Assembly: GCA_903916735.1 (NCBI GenBank)
Contig: CAIWXX010000113.1
Location: 1-64,000, forward strand
Origin: an uncultured Acidobacteriota bacterium
Lineage (GTDB): Bacteria; Acidobacteriota; CAIWXX01
DNA length: 64,000 bases
Reading direction: 5' to 3'
The stretch's first letter is position 1, and every line of letters starts with the position of its first letter. Below are positions 45,952-63,887 of the stretch, one piece after another. The notes beneath the pieces were generated by a model that saw only the letters and a program-made list of their open reading frames with translations, did not search any database and had not been told where the DNA came from. Made by a program: the position numbers and the translations under genes.

Positions 45952-47208
45952 CTATCTCTTGATCGACAGTGCTTCCTGCATCAGTTCGTCGCTCGTCGTG
46001 ATGACGCGCGAATTGGCCTGGTAGCCGCGTTGAGCGGTGATGATATTGGTGAATTCCTGTGCAATGTCGACGTTGCTCAGTTCCAATGCGCCGCCGGCGA
46101 TGGCGGCTCGTCCACCAGTTTGCGCTTCACCAACACTCGGTGCACCCGATGTGACCGTTTCCGCGTATCGGTTTGCACCAAGTTTTATTAATCCTTGCGG
46201 ATCATTGAATGAGGCCAGCGCCACCTGAGCTAATTCTGCTGTTTGCCCGTTTGAGTAAACTGCTTCAATGACGCCATCCGTGCGAACTACAATTGAACTG
46301 ATATTGCCGGCACCATATCCATCTTGGGTTGTGGAAGAAGTTGATGAAGGCGATCCATATTGGGTGATGTTGCCCGTAGCTGGTGTTCCACTGGCGATAT
46401 CCCAGTTCATTGTTTGTGTGAATGGAGCTGTCCCGTTAAGCCACGTGAAGGTGAGTGCTTGGTCGGCGGGCCCAATGAGCTGTCCAGTATTGTCGAAGGT
46501 GAAGTTGATCGTGCCACCTGGGGGAGCAGTGACACTCCCATCAGCAGCAGGCACACCGACAGTGCAGGTCCAGGCATTGGCCGCCGTCTTGGCGAATGTG
46601 AATGTAACGGTGTGAGAGGCGCCGAGTGTGTCGTAGACTACGATCGACGTGCTATATTGCGCTCCAATGGCTGCACTGGCATCGAGGTTTGTGACATGGG
46701 CGAGCGTGGTTGTCGCCTTCGGAGGATTAATATCACCCTGATTGATCACAATATTCGATAAAGCTGTATTCGCGATGATTTTTCCAGTCAAATCCTTCGT
46801 TTCCCAACCTTGGATGAAACTTCCGTCTGGAGCGACCAAATTGCCCGATTTATCGAGCGTAAAATTACCCGCTCGTGTATAGCTCGTCGTTCCATTCGCA
46901 TTCTTCGAAATGAAGAAGCCACCACCGAGTAACGCCATGTTGGTGGCCTCGCCGGTGAACATGAGACTTCCCTGGGTAAAGAGCGAGGTGGTCGAGAGGA
47001 GCTGTGTGCCAAGGCCGATCTGCATCGGGTTGCCGGCGCCGTTGACGACGGCGCCTCCGGTGAGGGTCTGCGAAAGGAGATCTCCAAAAGTCGTCAGGTT
47101 TGCCTTGAATCCGATCGTGTTGATGTTCGCAAGGTTGTTGCCGATGATGCTCAGGTAGAGCGCATTGGCGTTCAATCCGGAAAGAGCAGCGTAAAACGAT
47201 GTTAACAT
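45952..47208 (-). CDS. flgE: Flagellar hook protein FlgE
   Basis: 418 residues. The N-terminal rod/hook signature reads MLTSFYAALSGLNANALYLS then GNNLANINTIGFK. The C-terminal block ELSNVDIAQEFTNIITAQRGYQ is the paired helix of the same family. The middle domain is variable, rich in Thr and Ala. It polymerises into the hook outside the cell and is exported by the type III machinery. TGGAGG (minus strand) precedes the ATG, and a 7-bp hairpin stands just upstream of that site. Confidence 0.95.
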   Translation of the reverse strand: MLTSFYAALSGLNANALYLSIIGNNLANINTIGFKANLTTFGDLLSQTLTGGAVVNGAGNPMQIGLGTQLLSTTSLFTQGSLMFTGEATNMALLGGGFFISKNANGTTSYTRAGNFTLDKSGNLVAPDGSFIQGWETKDLTGKIIANTALSNIVINQGDINPPKATTTLAHVTNLDASAAIGAQYSTSIVVYDTLGASHTVTFTFAKTAANAWTCTVGVPAADGSVTAPPGGTINFTFDNTGQLIGPADQALTFTWLNGTAPFTQTMNWDIASGTPATGNITQYGSPSSTSSTTQDGYGAGNISSIVVRTDGVIEAVYSNGQTAELAQVALASFNDPQGLIKLGANRYAETVTSGAPSVGEAQTGGRAAIAGGALELSNVDIAQEFTNIITAQRGYQANSRVITTSDELMQEALSIKR

Positions 47209-47673: not shown

Positions 47674-48402
47674 TTCATTCCTCCATCATTCCTTACTCTG
47701 ATTAAGCAACCATCGTGCCAATCGGCAACGGTTTACAACTGCCTTTATTTTCATAGAAATAGCTGGTCGGACGCCCCCTTGCTCACAGCCATCCTTGGGC
47801 AAAAAAATCGCCGGCCGGAAAAAAATACCTACCATGGGGAAGGCAATGGATTGTCCGGATGGCATATTTCCTGACGCGGCATAGCCACAACCAAACAAGA
47901 TGGCTTCGACAACCATCGCTCCCGAACCTCTCAAGAATACAGAAAGAGAAGAAAACAGGGACGGATTGTGGTTTCATAAGTCATTCCTGCATTCCTTTGT
48001 TCCTGGCTTCCTGAGAGGAATTCACGACTCTGCCGTATCACAACTTTTGCCATTTTGTGCACAGATTTCACCGATCGGATACGAGCTTCATTCCACGGCT
48101 CTCCGCCTTGAATGAAGGACTCGTTACGCTCGCAGACCACGTGGTCGATCCACGCGTTTCGTATACGTTTACGTCCACGACTGCGTCTACGATACGCGCT
48201 CTGGAAACTCTGACAACATGTTGGTAAGGATCGTGCGCTAAGGAGCCTAAGAAACTATTTTCATTGATGAAGGATTTCGGCGTGCCTCGTCGAATGAACC
48301 TAACCGCACATGTACCACCGACCGTTGCCTTGCTATGCGATGCATTCGGAGATTTCCGTCACCCCCTGGTGGCGATGCCTATTCGACGGGGATCAAGTCC
48401 GC
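47674..48402. other. Gap between fliK and flgD
   Basis: 729 nt. The sigma54 promoter of flgD lies at its left end. The middle has worn words (AGGAA-type around 47985-48015 and GACGT-type at 48154-48198). No intact gene was recognised. The gap separates the fliK-side and flgD-side transcription units. Confidence 0.55.
47705..47721 (-). promoter_or_regulatory. Sigma54 promoter of flgD-flgE
   Basis: On the minus strand TTGGCACGATGGTTGCT matches the -24/-12 consensus TGGCACG-N4-TTGCT exactly, with correct spacing. Predicted transcription starts about 12 nt past the GC, leaving a leader of about 20 nt with the flgD ribosome-binding site. Confidence 0.88.
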
Positions 48403-56811: not shown

Positions 56812-56828
56812 AGCAAGCTTTATGCCAG
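56812..56828 (-). promoter_or_regulatory. Sigma54 promoter of the flgB operon
   Basis: The minus strand reads CTGGCATAAAGCTTGCT: GG and GC are spaced as in the -24/-12 consensus, with T for C at one position of TGGCAC. Predicted start is close to the ribosome-binding site of flgB. Confidence 0.8.
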
Positions 56829-57115: not shown

Positions 57116-58420
57116 TCATGCCTCCATCCGGTACTCACGGAGTTTATTGCGAAGAGTACGAAGAGAGATGCCCAGGGCCTTCGCTGCATGAGTCCGATTG
57201 CCGCTCTTTTCTTCCAACGTCTTTAGGATTAATTCCCGCTCCATCCCATCGATAGTTTGCAGAGAATCGATCGACGCCCGGTGAGCCGGAGATTCGCCCA
57301 GGAAGAGATGTTCCGGCTGCACGATAGGACCTTCGCAGATGGCGACCGCACGCAAGATGCTGTTCTGGAGCTCGCGGACATTGCCCGGCCAGTCGTTGGC
57401 TTCGAGGAGCCGGAGAGCGTCGTCGTTCAAATGGAGCCGCAGCGGAGCAGCAGCCTTTTCCAAAAAATGCACAGCCAGGAGTGCAATGTCGGATCGGCGC
57501 TCGCGCAGTGGAGGCAGACGGAGCGGCACGACATTCAACCTGAAGAACAGATCTTCGCGAAACAGGCCTTGCTTAACGAGTTGCCCCAGCTCCCGGTTGG
57601 TCGTCGCGACGATGCGGATGTCGACGGAAACCGGATGTCGTGCACCGATCCGATCGACTTCGCGTTCCTGCAAGACTCGCAGCAACTTTGCCTGCAAAAG
57701 CATGCTCATCTCACCGATTTCGTCCAGCAGAAGCGTGCCACCGTGAGCGAGCTCGAATTTTCCCGGCTTGGATGAAATGGCGCCCGTGAATGCGCCCTTC
57801 TCGTATCCGAAGAGCTCGGATTCGAGCAGATTGTCGGGGATCGCCGCGCAATTGACGGCGACGAAAGGACCCTGCGACCGTTGGCTTTCGGAATGGATCA
57901 TTCGTGCCAGCACTTCCTTGCCGGTTCCACTTTCTCCACTGATTAATACCGTCGAATTGCTTCGTGCGATCCGCACAGCCATCTCGACAAGTTGCTTGGT
58001 GCGAGGATCCCGGGTCAGGAAACCAGATCGGTTCGCTGCCGCCGAAAGGTCGCGGCTTGTTTCAAAAACCCGATTCACAACAGCCTGCAGATCTTCGGGG
58101 GCAAAGGGTTTGAGAATATAGTCGGAGGCCCCGAGTTTCATGGCTTCGACGGCATTCTGGACCGTGCCATAGGCAGTCATGATCACGACAGGGACGCCCG
58201 GTGAAGCCGCGTGAACCTGCTGCATCAACTCAATGCCGTCGGTCTTATTCATCCGCAAATCGGTGATCACGAGGTTGAAGGGCGAATCCTTCACCTTGTC
58301 GATCGCCTCATCAGGGCTGAGGGCCGTTTCGACATCGTAGCCATCACCGCTCAAGACGGCGCCTACCGCCTGAACCATTTCGAAGTCATCGTCGAGGACA
58401 AGTATTTTTTCCATTTCCAA
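57116..58420 (-). CDS. Sigma54-dependent response regulator (NtrC family, FlrC/FlgR-like)
   Basis: 434 residues. The receiver has Asp54 in ITDLRMNKTDG. The AAA activator domain has Walker A GESGTGKEVLA, the sigma54-contacting EKGAFTGAISS and LLDEIGEM. The C-terminal Fis-type helix-turn-helix has THAAKALGISLRTLRNKL. It should drive sigma54 promoters when phosphorylated. Its place beside flgB, with sigma54 sites before flgB and flgD, makes it the likely flagellar activator. The partner kinase gene lies 8 nt upstream. Confidence 0.93.
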   Translation of the reverse strand: MEMEKILVLDDDFEMVQAVGAVLSGDGYDVETALSPDEAIDKVKDSPFNLVITDLRMNKTDGIELMQQVHAASPGVPVVIMTAYGTVQNAVEAMKLGASDYILKPFAPEDLQAVVNRVFETSRDLSAAANRSGFLTRDPRTKQLVEMAVRIARSNSTVLISGESGTGKEVLARMIHSESQRSQGPFVAVNCAAIPDNLLESELFGYEKGAFTGAISSKPGKFELAHGGTLLLDEIGEMSMLLQAKLLRVLQEREVDRIGARHPVSVDIRIVATTNRELGQLVKQGLFREDLFFRLNVVPLRLPPLRERRSDIALLAVHFLEKAAAPLRLHLNDDALRLLEANDWPGNVRELQNSILRAVAICEGPIVQPEHLFLGESPAHRASIDSLQTIDGMERELILKTLEEKSGNRTHAAKALGISLRTLRNKLREYRMEA

Positions 58421-58428
58421 TCCTGAGT

Positions 58429-59775
58429 TCAGAGTTCCGAGTTATGAGTCTGGTGTCTTTCGGATGACACTGAGCATGCAGAGAATTCCCTGGCTCTTCC
58501 CGCTCCCGTTCGCAAACCTTCTGTCCTGTGCTCTTCGTACGTCAAGATCCGGCGGACAGCAGGAAGTGCCAGCCGGAAAGTGGTGCCTTCGCCCGTGCGG
58601 CTTTCGACTCCAATCGCTCCTCCATGTTTTTCAACGATTGTGTGGACGATGGATAGCCCCAATCCCGTGCCATTTCTGTTGGTCGTAAAGAATGGATCAA
58701 AGATACGGTTGAGGTTTTCGGAAGGAATGCCGCGTCCTGTATCGCCCACCGAAAGAAGCAGGCGGGGATCGGGCGTGTTGGGCGCCAGGCCGGTTGTCAA
58801 AGTGAGAGTTCCTCCACGAGGCATTGCCTGGATCGCATTCAGAATCAGATTGAGCAGCGCTTGTTTCAACAGTTCTGGATCGGCTCTCGCCAGCAATCCG
58901 TCCTCGCCGAAATCCGTATGCAGCCGGACTCCTCGCTGTTCCATCAGCGGCGCAACAAAGGTGGTGCATTGTTCGACGAGCGCCTGGAGTTGTACGGCTT
59001 CGAATTTCGGTGAAAGGACTTTCGAAAAATTGAGCATGTTGGTGAGCGTGTTGTTGAGAAAGCGAGCCGATGAAAGGATGCAGGATGCGTAGCGCCGCGG
59101 CTCTGATCCCTCCGGGGCCTGTTTTTCAAGCATCGACGCGAAAAGCTCGATCGAGCCGAGAGGGTTGCGGATTTCATGAGCAAGCTGGCAGCTCATGGCG
59201 CCCATCACCCGCAGCCGCTCACCACGCCTGTTTTCCTCTTCCAATATTTTCAACCGCGTGATGTCTGTGAGGATGAGAATCACCCCGCCCTCGCCCTCTG
59301 CTTTCGTGGCAACCGGCGAAGATCGCACGAGCAAGTGCCGGGAACCGGACGGGCGGTGAAGTGAAATTTCGCGTTCATCCGGAACGCCGGCGCCGCCAAT
59401 GAGATCGCGAAGAGTATCCGGTGTTTCGATCGGTTCACCGAGAAGCGCGGCCGCCTGCGGGTTGGTCGTCCGCATTTTTCCATCCTCGCCAAGGACCACC
59501 ACTCCGCACGGCAGCGATTGAAGAATATTGTCCAGATAGCTCTTCACTCGCTCTTTTTCAGCCAAGTTGATTTCAAGCTGACGGTTCTTTTCCTCGAGCT
59601 CCATCTGCAGAGATTGAGCCTGCTTCTGCAGCTCCCCATAAGCCGACTCCAGCTTCTGGGATGCCTGGATGAAGGACTGAAACGCCTCCACCATGAGATT
59701 GTATTCCCGGCTGACTTCCGGTGACTCTATGGCAACCGGCATTGTGACACCATCACTTCCGATCTGGCACATCAT
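58429..59775 (-). CDS. PAS-domain sensor histidine kinase, partner of the sigma54 activator
   Basis: 448 residues with no membrane segment, so cytoplasmic. A coiled coil (about 35-85), a PAS domain (about 85-175), HisKA with His200 in LAHEIRNPL and HATPase with GNGTGLGLS-type box (RNGTGLGLS). The C-terminal 40 or so residues are unrelated to the family. It is the FlrB/FlgS type, whose signal is thought to be an assembly state of the flagellar base. It is co-transcribed with the regulator. Two ATGs at the very start leave the exact N-terminus open. Confidence 0.9.
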   Translation of the reverse strand: MMCQIGSDGVTMPVAIESPEVSREYNLMVEAFQSFIQASQKLESAYGELQKQAQSLQMELEEKNRQLEINLAEKERVKSYLDNILQSLPCGVVVLGEDGKMRTTNPQAAALLGEPIETPDTLRDLIGGAGVPDEREISLHRPSGSRHLLVRSSPVATKAEGEGGVILILTDITRLKILEEENRRGERLRVMGAMSCQLAHEIRNPLGSIELFASMLEKQAPEGSEPRRYASCILSSARFLNNTLTNMLNFSKVLSPKFEAVQLQALVEQCTTFVAPLMEQRGVRLHTDFGEDGLLARADPELLKQALLNLILNAIQAMPRGGTLTLTTGLAPNTPDPRLLLSVGDTGRGIPSENLNRIFDPFFTTNRNGTGLGLSIVHTIVEKHGGAIGVESRTGEGTTFRLALPAVRRILTYEEHRTEGLRTGAGRAREFSACSVSSERHQTHNSEL

Positions 59776-59906
59776 TGTGTTCGCTTAATTCGTGAGCATG
59801 CTGTCGGGCTCTCGGCAACAGTGGAGGAGCCGACGCGCACCGGCTCGTTCTCTCCACCGTTCCTCTGCTCCTTCGCAAAAGCAAGCTCATGTTGTCATTC
59901 ACCTGA
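59776..59906. repeat. Intergenic inverted repeat upstream of the PAS kinase
   Basis: GTGGAG (59821-59826) faces CTCCAC (59852-59857), and within it GAGCCG faces CGGCTC. It can form a hairpin that would act as terminator or processing site between the GAF/HisKA gene and the kinase. No strong T-run. Confidence 0.45.
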
Positions 59907-61172
59907 TTATTTCGTCGAAAGATCAAGGTCCAGCATCTTGGTCTTCGGCTGGTAATCGGTGACGATGGTTCTCTTGACGGCGGCGATCTTTTCGGTCACG
60001 GCTCGAATCCTCCTGACACTGCTCTCAATCGATTCGATCCGCTTCTTGATTTTTTCCTGTTCCGGCGTCAGCGACATCAGGAGGAGTTGCGTGTCGAGGA
60101 CAATGGCGCAGAGAGGATTGTTGATTTCGTGATTGATCGAGGCGGCCATGGCGCCGAGGGCTGCAAGACGCTCGGCTTCAACCAGCTGTTTCTGAGTTTG
60201 CAGCACTTCTTCTCTGGATTGGAGAATGTCATAGTAAAGGCGGGCGTTTTCGATGGCGATCCCTGCATGACCGCAGAGCATCTCGGCGCGGCGGACATCG
60301 TCCGGCGTGATGGGACGGCTCGTTCGGATGTTATCCGATGTGATGGTCCCGATCACATGCCCTTTCACGATCATCGGAACTTTCACGAAGGGCGTTGGAT
60401 ACAGCCGCGCTGCAGGCGTGCCTTGGTATGCCGGATCGGCACCCGGATTCGCCACAACCGTTTTCCTGCCTTCGAGGATATCCCCCATCCACGGATTGGC
60501 CGGGTCATCAAGATTCCAACATTGCTTGCGGAATTCCTCATCGTCCGATCCCGTCGATAGCTTCGCCTCCTCGATCATCTTGTCTTTGTTGATGAGCGCA
60601 AGGACAACCCGGTCGAAATCCAAAACTCGATGGATGCCATCCAGGATGATGCGCAGGATTTCCTCGAGATTGAGCGTCGATGTCATGGCACGAGCGATGT
60701 CGTTCAGGACTTGCATCTCTTCCCGATCTCTTAACAAGCGTTGGCTCTGCTCTTCCAGTTCCAGAGTGCGTTCCCTCACTTCATGTGACAGGTTGGTCAC
60801 TTCGACGAAGAGTTTCTGGTTATCGAGGCCCCGCTTCACGGATCGAAGCAGCGTTTCCTGGCATACCGGGCGCAACAGGAAATCGAATACACCTCTCCTC
60901 ACAGCCCAGATCACCTGATCCGCGGGAGGGTCGGTGGCAACAGCGAGCACGCAGAGGCCCGAGCGCACTCGATGAAAATCATCCATCAAAGCACCGTTAT
61001 TGGCCAGAATCAGCTCGATATCGCAGATCAGAATCTGATGCTTCTCCGCCGCCAGCCGCGATAGAGCCTCATCCGGCGATGCCGCATATTCGCCACGCAT
61101 TCCTGCATCGGACAGGCTGTCAAGTATTTGGCTTCCATTTTCACCCAGAATCAGAATTCTTGCTTCTGTCAT
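59907..61172 (-). CDS. Pseudo-receiver/GAF/HisKA protein lacking an ATPase domain
   Basis: 421 residues. Residues 1-120 have the receiver fold, but the acidic pair near the N-terminus is replaced (GENG), while an Asp (51) remains at the usual acceptor place. A coiled coil (about 125-160), a GAF domain (about 165-320) and a HisKA helix pair follow, with His348 in INHEINNPL. It ends 74 residues later, without any HATPase domain. It cannot autophosphorylate unless another kinase acts on it. A sigma54 promoter lies just upstream, so it belongs to the flagellar regulon. Confidence 0.85.
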   Translation of the reverse strand: MTEARILILGENGSQILDSLSDAGMRGEYAASPDEALSRLAAEKHQILICDIELILANNGALMDDFHRVRSGLCVLAVATDPPADQVIWAVRRGVFDFLLRPVCQETLLRSVKRGLDNQKLFVEVTNLSHEVRERTLELEEQSQRLLRDREEMQVLNDIARAMTSTLNLEEILRIILDGIHRVLDFDRVVLALINKDKMIEEAKLSTGSDDEEFRKQCWNLDDPANPWMGDILEGRKTVVANPGADPAYQGTPAARLYPTPFVKVPMIVKGHVIGTITSDNIRTSRPITPDDVRRAEMLCGHAGIAIENARLYYDILQSREEVLQTQKQLVEAERLAALGAMAASINHEINNPLCAIVLDTQLLLMSLTPEQEKIKKRIESIESSVRRIRAVTEKIAAVKRTIVTDYQPKTKMLDLDLSTK

Positions 61173-61196
61173 AATGCGCCTCTGGCCACGGACAGA

Positions 61197-61213
61197 AGCA
61201 AGTTGTATGCCAG
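61197..61213 (-). promoter_or_regulatory. Sigma54 promoter of the GAF/HisKA gene
   Basis: The minus strand reads CTGGCATACAACTTGCT, with -24 GG and -12 GC correctly spaced and the same TGGCAT variant as the flgB promoter. The leader is about 15 nt with AGAGGCG before the ATG. Confidence 0.8.
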
Positions 61214-61394: not shown

Positions 61395-63887
61395 TCACCG
61401 ATCCAGCGCCTCCCGGACCTTGGCGGCCAGGTCTTCCATTGAGAACGGCTTCTGGATGAAATACACCCCTTCATCCAGCACGCCGTGGTGGGCGATGACA
61501 TTGGCCGTATATCCCGACATGAACAGGCGCTTGAGGTCCGGATAGAGGGACAAGAGGTTTTTGGCCAGGTCCCGGCCGTTCATCTCGGGCATGACCACGT
61601 CGGTCATGAGCAGATGGATCTCGCCGGCGTGCTCCCTGGACAGGAGGATGGCCTCGCCCGGGGTGCTTGCCGCCAGCACGGTGAAGCCCTGCCGTTCGAG
61701 CATCACCTTGGTCAGTTTCAGGATGGCAGGCTCGTCTTCCACCAGCAGGACCGTCTCGTGGCCGCGCGCAGCAAGCGTCGCCGGACCTTTGTTCTGCATC
61801 TGCCCGGCCTTGCCCGCATGCCGGGGCAGATATATCTTGAACGTCGTTCCCAGTCCCGGCTCGCTGTAGGCATTGATGAAGCCATTGTTTTGCTTGACGG
61901 AGCCGTACACCGTGGCCAACCCGAGGCCGGTGCCCCTGCCGACGCCTTTGGTTGTGAAGAACGGTTCGAAAAGATGCGACATCGTTTCCTTGTCCATGCC
62001 GCAGCCGTTGTCGCTCACGGCGATCAGTACATACTCCCCGGGCTCAAAGCCCGCGTGATCGGCGCAATAGTCAGCGTCGAAGACGCTGTTTCCCGTCTCG
62101 ATCGTGATCCTGCCGATGTCGGCGATGGCGTCCCGGGCGTTGACGCACAGGTTGGCCAGGATCTGGTCTATCTGGGACGGGTCCACCTTGACCGGCCACA
62201 GATCCGCCGCCGGCTGCCAGTTGAGGTCGATATCCTCGCCGATGAGCCGTTGCAGCATCTTGAGCATGCCCGCCACTGTCTCGTTCAGGTCCAGCACCTT
62301 GGGGGCAACTGTCTGCTTGCGGGCAAAGGCCAGCAGTTGCCGGGTGAGGTCAGCGGAGCGAACGGCCGCCTTGCGGATTTCCATAAGGTCGTTATGGAGC
62401 GGCTGGGCCGGGTCCACCTGCTCGAGAGCCAACTCCGCATGCCCAAGGATCACACTCAGCATGTTGTTGAAGTCATGGGCCACGCCCCCCGCCAGCCGCC
62501 CCACCGACTCCATCTTCTGGGCCTGCTGGAGCTGGCCTTCGAGATTGGCCTTCTCCTCCTCCGCCCGCTTGCGCTCGGTGATGTCTTCGATGCTGGACAG
62601 AATAAAGGATTCGTTGTTGAGATAAATGATCTTGGCGGAGAGCGAACCTGTAATGATTTCGCCATTTTTTTTATTGAACAGGCACTCCATTCCATACACT
62701 TCCCTGCCTTCAAGAAGAGCGGATACCACCTGCTTTCGTTCTTCTATATCTACCCACAGGTTAAGTCCAACCGAAGAATTGGCGATTACCTCTTCCCTGG
62801 TGAAGCCCGTAATCGAGGTAAAGGCATCGTTGAATTCGATGTATTTTCCATCTTTCAAACGCGTGATAGTGATTGCATAAGGGGATGTCAGGAAAGCCTT
62901 GGAATATTTTTCCTCGCTCTTCCTCAGCGCCTCCTCGGCCTGCTTGCGCTCGGTGATATCACGGGCGATCCCCATATAGCCAATCAATTTGCCGCCGGCA
63001 TCGCTCATGGGTGACCCGTTCGAGGAATGCCACCGCCAGGTGCCGTCCTTGTGTTGTATTCGATATTCGATCCCGCCTGCTTTTTCCCCCGTCGTTATGA
63101 TCCGCTCCAGAAAAGCCCGACACGCCGGAACGTCATCCGGATGCACAAAGCGCGCAAATGATTGACCGATGACTTCATGGGCGTCATGCCCGAGTATGGC
63201 TTTCCAGTTGGGGGAGATATAGATAATGATGCCATTTGGCTCCAGCGTGTAGATGATATCATTGGCATTTTCCACGAAAGAGCGGAACCATTCTTCGCTC
63301 TCCCGCAGTGCCGCCTCGGCCTGCTTGCGCTCGGTCATGTCGCTCAGCATGATGCGGCAGACGGGCGCGCCGCCGGCGTCCTGCGCGGCGGTGGCTTCCA
63401 GCCGCGCCCAGAATGCCGTTCCGTCATTTTTCACCATCCGCAGTTCCCACGCCTGCGGCTCGCCGGTTTCAAAGAGTTGTTTGCGGTGCAGGTAGTAGTT
63501 GTCCTGGTCTTCCTTGAGGACGAACCGGGTCAAAAGCTGTTTGATCATCGCGGCCCGCGCCACGCCCAGCAAAGTCTCGGTGGCGAGGTTGGCCTCCAGG
63601 ATCATCCCCTGCTCGCTGACGGTGACATAGCCCACCGGCGCCAGGTCGTAGAGGTCGAAGTAGCGTACCCGCGCGGCATCCAGTTCCGCCTGCACCCGTC
63701 GCAGTTCCTCGTTCTGCATTTCAAGCTCGATCTTATGCACGCACAGTTCATGGATCATCTGCCGCATTTCTTCGGGCGACTGGGCTTCGAGGTTTTCCGG
63801 CGACTGGGCCGCCTTTTTCCGGGCGATCTCGCCGGCCTGCCTGCGTAGTTCTGTGGCTTGTTCGGGTTTGCTATCCTTGCTTTTCAT
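61395..63887 (-). CDS. Triple-PAS hybrid sensor histidine kinase
   Basis: 830 residues with no membrane helix. An N-terminal coiled coil (about 1-70) is followed by three PAS/PAC domains (about 70-190, 195-320 and 325-445), each followed by an ITERK/MTERK helix. HisKA (GVAHDFNN), HATPase with GVGRGTGLGLATVYG and a C-terminal receiver (TDVVMPEMNG) complete it. It is a cytoplasmic multi-signal sensor. Its ATG overlaps the stop of the upstream partial gene (ATGA), so the two are coupled. The core is like that of the kinase at 146-2728. A role in the flagellar circuit is not supported. Confidence 0.93.
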   Translation of the reverse strand: MKSKDSKPEQATELRRQAGEIARKKAAQSPENLEAQSPEEMRQMIHELCVHKIELEMQNEELRRVQAELDAARVRYFDLYDLAPVGYVTVSEQGMILEANLATETLLGVARAAMIKQLLTRFVLKEDQDNYYLHRKQLFETGEPQAWELRMVKNDGTAFWARLEATAAQDAGGAPVCRIMLSDMTERKQAEAALRESEEWFRSFVENANDIIYTLEPNGIIIYISPNWKAILGHDAHEVIGQSFARFVHPDDVPACRAFLERIITTGEKAGGIEYRIQHKDGTWRWHSSNGSPMSDAGGKLIGYMGIARDITERKQAEEALRKSEEKYSKAFLTSPYAITITRLKDGKYIEFNDAFTSITGFTREEVIANSSVGLNLWVDIEERKQVVSALLEGREVYGMECLFNKKNGEIITGSLSAKIIYLNNESFILSSIEDITERKRAEEEKANLEGQLQQAQKMESVGRLAGGVAHDFNNMLSVILGHAELALEQVDPAQPLHNDLMEIRKAAVRSADLTRQLLAFARKQTVAPKVLDLNETVAGMLKMLQRLIGEDIDLNWQPAADLWPVKVDPSQIDQILANLCVNARDAIADIGRITIETGNSVFDADYCADHAGFEPGEYVLIAVSDNGCGMDKETMSHLFEPFFTTKGVGRGTGLGLATVYGSVKQNNGFINAYSEPGLGTTFKIYLPRHAGKAGQMQNKGPATLAARGHETVLLVEDEPAILKLTKVMLERQGFTVLAASTPGEAILLSREHAGEIHLLMTDVVMPEMNGRDLAKNLLSLYPDLKRLFMSGYTANVIAHHGVLDEGVYFIQKPFSMEDLAAKVREALDR

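Follow-up and report, generated by a model that had tools for sequence, protein, structure and literature searches.

Rod and hook genes of polar flagellates are controlled by the two-component pairs FlrB-FlrC, FleS-FleR and FlgS-FlgR, each made of a PAS kinase and a sigma54 activator, and sigma54 promoters precede the flagellar operons. Accessory proteins of such regulators are known: FlrD is a proposed accessory of FlrBC, and FliX is an accessory of FlbD (PMC3930126). The signal of FlrB/FleS-type kinases, and any factor that ties them to flagellar or MS-ring assembly, is an open question (PMC7064773).

HisKA proteins that lack a HATPase domain form a known class. A SMART census counted 1556 of them among 42417 HisKA proteins (3.7%), 711 of which carry the phosphatase motif (PMC3591291). 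In HisKA proteins, the Glu beside the His is needed for kinase and not for phosphatase activity, the Asn or Thr at position +4 is needed for phosphatase and not for kinase activity, and the DHp domain of NtrB or EnvZ alone suffices for phosphatase activity (PMC3510030). RetS, with a degenerate HATPase and an intact HExxT motif, dephosphorylates and inhibits its partner kinase (PMC5992135).

The acidobacterial locus analyzed here lies in a window of 64,000 nucleotides, the whole stretch of DNA under study, and resembles the flagellar systems above with one addition. An intact gene, here called X, is the first gene of an X-flrB-flrC operon, which is followed by the rod and MS-ring genes flgB-flgC-fliE-fliF; kinase and activator adjoin these genes as in an FlrBC-type flagellar system. 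The main features are:

61197 to 61212, reverse strand: predicted sigma54 (-24/-12) promoter TGGCATACAACTTGCT of the X-flrB-flrC operon, 40 nt before the X start
59907 to 61172, reverse strand: gene X, pseudo-receiver/coiled-coil/GAF/HisKA protein without HATPase (open reading frame, Pfam, structure model)
58429 to 59775, reverse strand: FlrB/FleS-type PAS-HisKA-HATPase kinase, complete with its own His, N, G1 and G2 boxes (Pfam, motifs)
57116 to 58420, reverse strand: FlrC/FleR-type activator, receiver-AAA(sigma54)-HTH (Pfam)
56812 to 56827, reverse strand: predicted sigma54 promoter TGGCATAAAGCTTGCT before flgB-flgC-fliE-fliF (pattern match; counterpart at 9905-9920 of contig L011)

An earlier, sequence-only reading had placed the gene at 59907-61213, next to the flagellar two-component pair. 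The neighborhood is as described, with the PAS kinase gene flrB and flrC directly downstream, and the gene is present; its coding sequence, however, is shorter, the extra stretch being the promoter. At 183 nt upstream of the X promoter lies the end of a complete PAS-PAS-PAS-HisKA-HATPase-receiver hybrid kinase (61395-63887, also reverse strand); in L011 it is not found upstream of X.

The product of X has 421 residues, which are divided as follows:

60819 to 61172, reverse strand: degenerate receiver domain, residues 1-118 (Response_reg match below cut-off, alignment, receiver-like fold in the model)
60681 to 60818, reverse strand: coiled-coil helix, residues 119-164 (model)
60243 to 60680, reverse strand: GAF domain, residues 165-310, the presumed sensor (Pfam GAF_2, Foldseek matches to GAF domains)
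59961 to 60164, reverse strand: HisKA/DHp helical hairpin, residues 337-404 (Pfam HisKA; H-box invariant in the five proteins compared below)
59910 to 59960, reverse strand: C-terminal tail TDYQPKTKMLDLDLSTK, in place of a HATPase linker (helix 2 plus tail profile)

Pfam identified the GAF domain with 52 bits (GAF_2, E 9.4e-14) and HisKA with 34 bits, above the curated cut-off of 26.9, and found no HATPase in the protein. The Response_reg match reached 21.6 bits, under its cut-off of 30.2, and the receiver is therefore labelled 'pseudo'. Its beta3 Asp (D51) is kept, the acidic pocket is reduced to GEN and the beta5 Lys is replaced by Arg (RPV), so that the set of residues of a true receiver (acidic pair, phospho-Asp, Thr/Ser, Lys) is incomplete; according to the alignment, decay is further along in the relatives L010 and L077, in which the Asp is absent too. 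The HExxN motif comprises H348 (codon 60129-60131), E349 and N352, and with HEINN at 348-352 the protein belongs to the HATPase-less HisKA proteins with a phosphatase motif (HE/DxxN/T). An AlphaFold2 model built from five sequences (mean pLDDT 70) places an alpha/beta domain of receiver-like fold before a long helix, followed by a GAF domain that is modelled with confidence; another long helix then leads into a two-helix DHp hairpin, which is only moderately confident, and residues 405-421 are unstructured. Foldseek matched the model to GAF and dual-sensor kinase structures. The layout proposed from the sequence, a pseudo-receiver, a GAF domain and a HisKA dimer without HATPase, agrees with these matches and with the model.

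The missing HATPase might reflect a decaying gene or an assembly error, in which a normal kinase lost its catalytic domain by frameshift. X is the sole exception among the 55 HisKA domains of its own genome, since in the other 54 a HATPase follows in frame within 500 nt. A frameshifted HATPase in the 131-nt gap between X and flrB (59776-59906) had been named as the observation that would undo the proposal; no such domain was found there in any reading frame, and the ends of four related proteins coincide with that of X, in a conserved tail. The differences per codon position between the two closest relatives (0.32/0.20/0.61) are a sign of purifying selection. In favor of a broken gene nothing was found. 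A frameshifted or truncated kinase is thus ruled out, and decay or misassembly of any kind is very improbable. The gap itself (reverse strand) contains a strong predicted hairpin (-44.9 kcal/mol, z -1.88) without a T run; it is nearly absent in the relatives.

The search for orthologs with the same truncation, proposed by the sequence-only reading, yielded four, so that with X five proteins from three acidobacterial families are available, none of which is a complete sensor histidine kinase with a HATPase in the same protein. The closest is 58% identical and comes from a groundwater Acidobacteria metagenome-assembled genome of the same family (L009 and L011, the same contig). Two relatives in a second family (L010/L076 and L014/L077) are 31% identical overall and about 35-41% over the aligned part, and the fifth protein, in a third family, shows 23% identity (genome G279, L048/L074). 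Their HisKA domains score 29.9, 27.1 and 32.1 bits, with that of L014, at 23.2, under the cut-off. All five proteins end a few residues past the second DHp helix, in a tail of the form EY...M..L. Conservation is concentrated in the H-box, where 10 of 15 positions are invariant, including the core NHEINNPL, compared to 12 of 146 in the GAF domain and 2 of 118 in the pseudo-receiver. The phospho-acceptor His348, Glu349 and Asn352 at +4 are kept in every protein, while other parts fall to about 10-20% identity. Given the known roles of these residues, X looks chemically competent, as judged from its sequence, both for phosphorylation in trans and for dephosphorylating a receiver.

RetS, PhyT, Spo0B and RocA are functional analogues. 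RetS, a modulator of GacS in P. aeruginosa, is kinase-like, keeps HExxT/N, cannot autophosphorylate and acts on another kinase, as is proposed for X; unlike X, which has no HATPase at all, it retains a degenerate HATPase and receiver domains. PhyT/PhyP, Spo0B and ChpT, phosphotransferases that descend from histidine kinases, have a phospho-acceptor His and handle phosphate without kinase activity; the likeness to X is read from its sequence. Spo0B and ChpT pass phosphoryl groups in relays. These proteins keep a degenerate catalytic-like domain; X lacks one, and differs also in its GAF and pseudo-receiver parts. RocA, the pseudokinase accessory of CovRS, resembles X as a kinase-like accessory of a complete kinase; it is a membrane protein of another phylum and has no link to sigma54 or flagella. 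What is new is a conserved HATPase-less member that is built into a flagellar regulatory operon and bears a tail signature. In line with the earlier claim that no flagellar regulator of this layout has been described, the literature search found no flagellar example of an ATPase-less HisKA protein, no ATPase-less GAF/DHp third component of FlrB-FlrC, FleS-FleR or FlgS-FlgR, and no paper on acidobacterial flagellar regulation with such a layout; FlrD and FliX belong to other families.

In all five genomes X lies in the operon of the flrB kinase. It is directly upstream of flrB-flrC in four, the spacing being 131 nt in the window and 2 nt in L011, and the genes of L076 and L077 overlapping by 4 nt; in G279 a gene for a TPR protein (L074 5946-7862) stands directly upstream of flrB, between the two. 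The slot upstream of flrB is also occupied elsewhere: two f25 genomes have long ORFs, TPR-like by eye (L108 7383-9281, L109 2424-4076), and family f27 has a small receiver plus coiled-coil protein of 189-214 residues (L086 3043-3612, L087 3358-4002, L091 464-1060). Small ORFs of 99 and 103 residues directly upstream of X (L076 5302-5601, forward strand; L074 9055-9366, reverse strand) have similar C-termini ending in LIDFF and no Pfam match, and are possibly divergent FlgM-like proteins.

A sigma54 promoter for X had been proposed, and a near-consensus site is indeed conserved. Among the four X loci with upstream sequence (the L077 contig starts within the X gene), the predicted element lies 40 nt (window), 38 nt (L011), 56 nt (L010) and 36 nt (L074) before the X start; since the mechanical ORF start of L010 overlaps the promoter, a downstream TTG (L010 1171) was taken as its start. 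A conserved upstream -24/-12 element with GG-N10-GC spacing marks the operon as a predicted sigma54-dependent one. The strict pattern has three matches in the window compared to 0.22 expected (none of 100 shuffles reached three), and all three precede flagellar operons. A perfect-consensus site TGGCACGATGGTTGCT at 47705-47720 (reverse strand) lies upstream of an FlgE-like hook gene (45952-47208). Several flrBC operons without X, for example in f27 genomes, have sigma54-like sites near flrB too. The site therefore belongs to the whole operon, and a promoter private to X, as originally envisaged, is ruled out. As the promoter of the operon, it suggests autoregulation of X-flrB-flrC by FlrC.

The truncation, the place in the operon and the sigma54 promoter recur in distant relatives, the H-box is the best conserved part of the protein, purifying selection acts between the two closest relatives, the HExxN motif is invariant in a shared operon, and RetS offers a precedent. 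On these grounds we tentatively favor X as a functional, conserved accessory of the acidobacterial FlrBC system, most likely lowering FlrC~P as a signal-gated feedback, a reading that is quite possible though short of probable. FlrC~P and sigma54 would activate the X operon, and the level of X would consequently rise as the rod/hook stage switches on. Through its GAF/pseudo-receiver part, X would sense a ligand or partner that sets the state of the DHp domain, which would then act on the FlrB/FlrC pair and most likely lower FlrC~P, by transmitter-phosphatase activity of the HExxN DHp, by acceptance of phosphate from the FlrB catalytic domain, or both. The outcome would be a signal-gated feedback on flagellar gene expression. 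Of the roles suggested by the sequence-only reading, phosphotransfer partner and feedback sensor are possible; a pure decoy for the PAS kinase is less likely, given the invariance of the phospho-acceptor His, the Glu and the +4 Asn in five proteins whose other parts diverge.

One residue points elsewhere: Glu349 is dispensable for phosphatase activity, and its invariance argues rather for phosphorylation in trans. In such a phosphorelay or split kinase, the catalytic domain of FlrB or of another kinase would phosphorylate His348, and X would pass the phosphoryl group to FlrC or another receiver. H348 and E349 are invariant throughout, genome G376 encodes a direct fusion between a receiver and a DHp domain that has the same tail (see below), HATPase-less HisKA proteins have been proposed as split kinases (PMC3591291), and PhyT, by way of its His, transfers the phosphate of a receiver to a response regulator (PMC5898713). 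The census proteins share with X the HisKA domain, the HE/DxxN/T motif and the lack of a HATPase, the census giving numbers only. However, FlrB comes with a DHp and a catalytic domain of its own, both complete, so X is not needed as a substrate and a strict split kinase is unnecessary; true split pairs have a partner devoid of a phospho-acceptor. Moreover, the receiver of FlrC is the sole one in the operon besides the degenerate domain of X. A relay through X is unlikely, although a serious contender.

It is also conceivable that X acts without enzymatic activity, as an adaptor that forms mixed complexes with FlrB via the DHp or the coiled coil and couples FlrB to a cue, either a ligand or flagellar assembly. 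RocA plays such a part for the kinase CovS, as does FliX for FlbD, and the same is proposed of FlrD for FlrBC. The TPR protein between X and flrB in G279 would fit such a scheme, as would the known accessory proteins FlrD and FliX (PMC3930126), and a direct contact between FlrB/FleS and the MS ring could not be shown, which leaves room for a further factor (PMC7064773). A pure scaffold would not require the catalytic H-box residues, yet these are the best conserved ones of X, and the adaptor is accordingly rather doubtful.

The accessory role in FlrBC signaling has to accommodate two further observations. Residues +7, +8, +11, +12 and +15 from the His in DHp helix 1 usually set receiver choice. 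Examples of this set are C,A,L,D,L and C,N,L,I,T for X, and G,S,L,F,M and T,G,L,F,L for FlrB; X may therefore fail to dock FlrC in the manner of FlrB. FlrBC without X, furthermore, occurs in most related families, which counts against a role as FlrB/FlrC modulator. The X profile is strong in four of 396 acidobacterial genomes, to which a DHp plus tail profile adds G279, and the carriers are some soil and groundwater Acidobacteria. The presence of X in every flrBC-bearing acidobacterium is ruled out by X-less FlrB relatives in families f7, f25, f27, f36, f40, f42, f51 and f64 (for f42, a contig end leaves little upstream sequence). The X-bearing FlrBs do not form one clade, as the G279 FlrB groups with that of the X-less f51 (support 99). 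This patchy, scattered distribution indicates an accessory gene with a history of repeated loss or of movement between lineages. Origin as a recent FlrB duplicate is ruled out by separate DHp clades (support 99 for X, 96 for FlrB); in the tree, which rests on a short alignment with weak deep branches, the X DHp is nearer to two other kinases of its own genome than to FlrB.

Patchiness, differing docking residues and the scatter of X-bearing FlrBs in the tree would also fit a partner of X outside the flagellar pair, the promoter being merely shared. X is nevertheless always in the flrBC operon across three families, is coupled to flrB by 2 nt or an overlap in three genomes, and has no second copy in those genomes at the same profile score; a partner elsewhere is improbable.

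The tail was followed beyond X. A helix 2 plus tail profile detected six clear proteins and a weak one in about 392 acidobacterial genomes, none with an in-frame HATPase: the five X proteins, a G376 protein and, weakly, a receiver-DHp protein of G279. The eighth match (G085) is marginal and restricted to helix 2. The G376 protein (L075 6189-8651, reverse strand; 820 residues) is a GAF-GAF-PAS-HisKA-tail-receiver protein without HATPase, with an EY...M.DL tail between the DHp and an apparently intact receiver. The G279 protein (L124, contig C526, reverse strand; about 234 residues) combines a receiver with a DHp (NHEINQPL), lacks a HATPase, ends in EEYIKDRNMVV and adjoins a kinase fragment with HATPase motifs; it, too, seems to belong to the ATPase-less DHp proteins with this tail. 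Among plasmids, a search with the X-family DHp plus tail found no match, and one with the G376 module gave only ten weak matches below 40% identity. Within the Acidobacteriota, the phylum searched, the EY...M..L tail may mark those DHp domains that function without a catalytic one. More speculatively, and unlikely to hold in full, the tail would define an unnamed class of stand-alone DHp signaling proteins that carry a short peptide in place of the catalytic domain, with X as a dedicated third FlrBC component that gates the rod/hook checkpoint via phospho-histidine chemistry.

X thus provides a natural minimal test case for what a DHp domain is capable of without a catalytic domain, and a concrete candidate for the factor that links an FlrB-type kinase to flagellar assembly in the Acidobacteriota.
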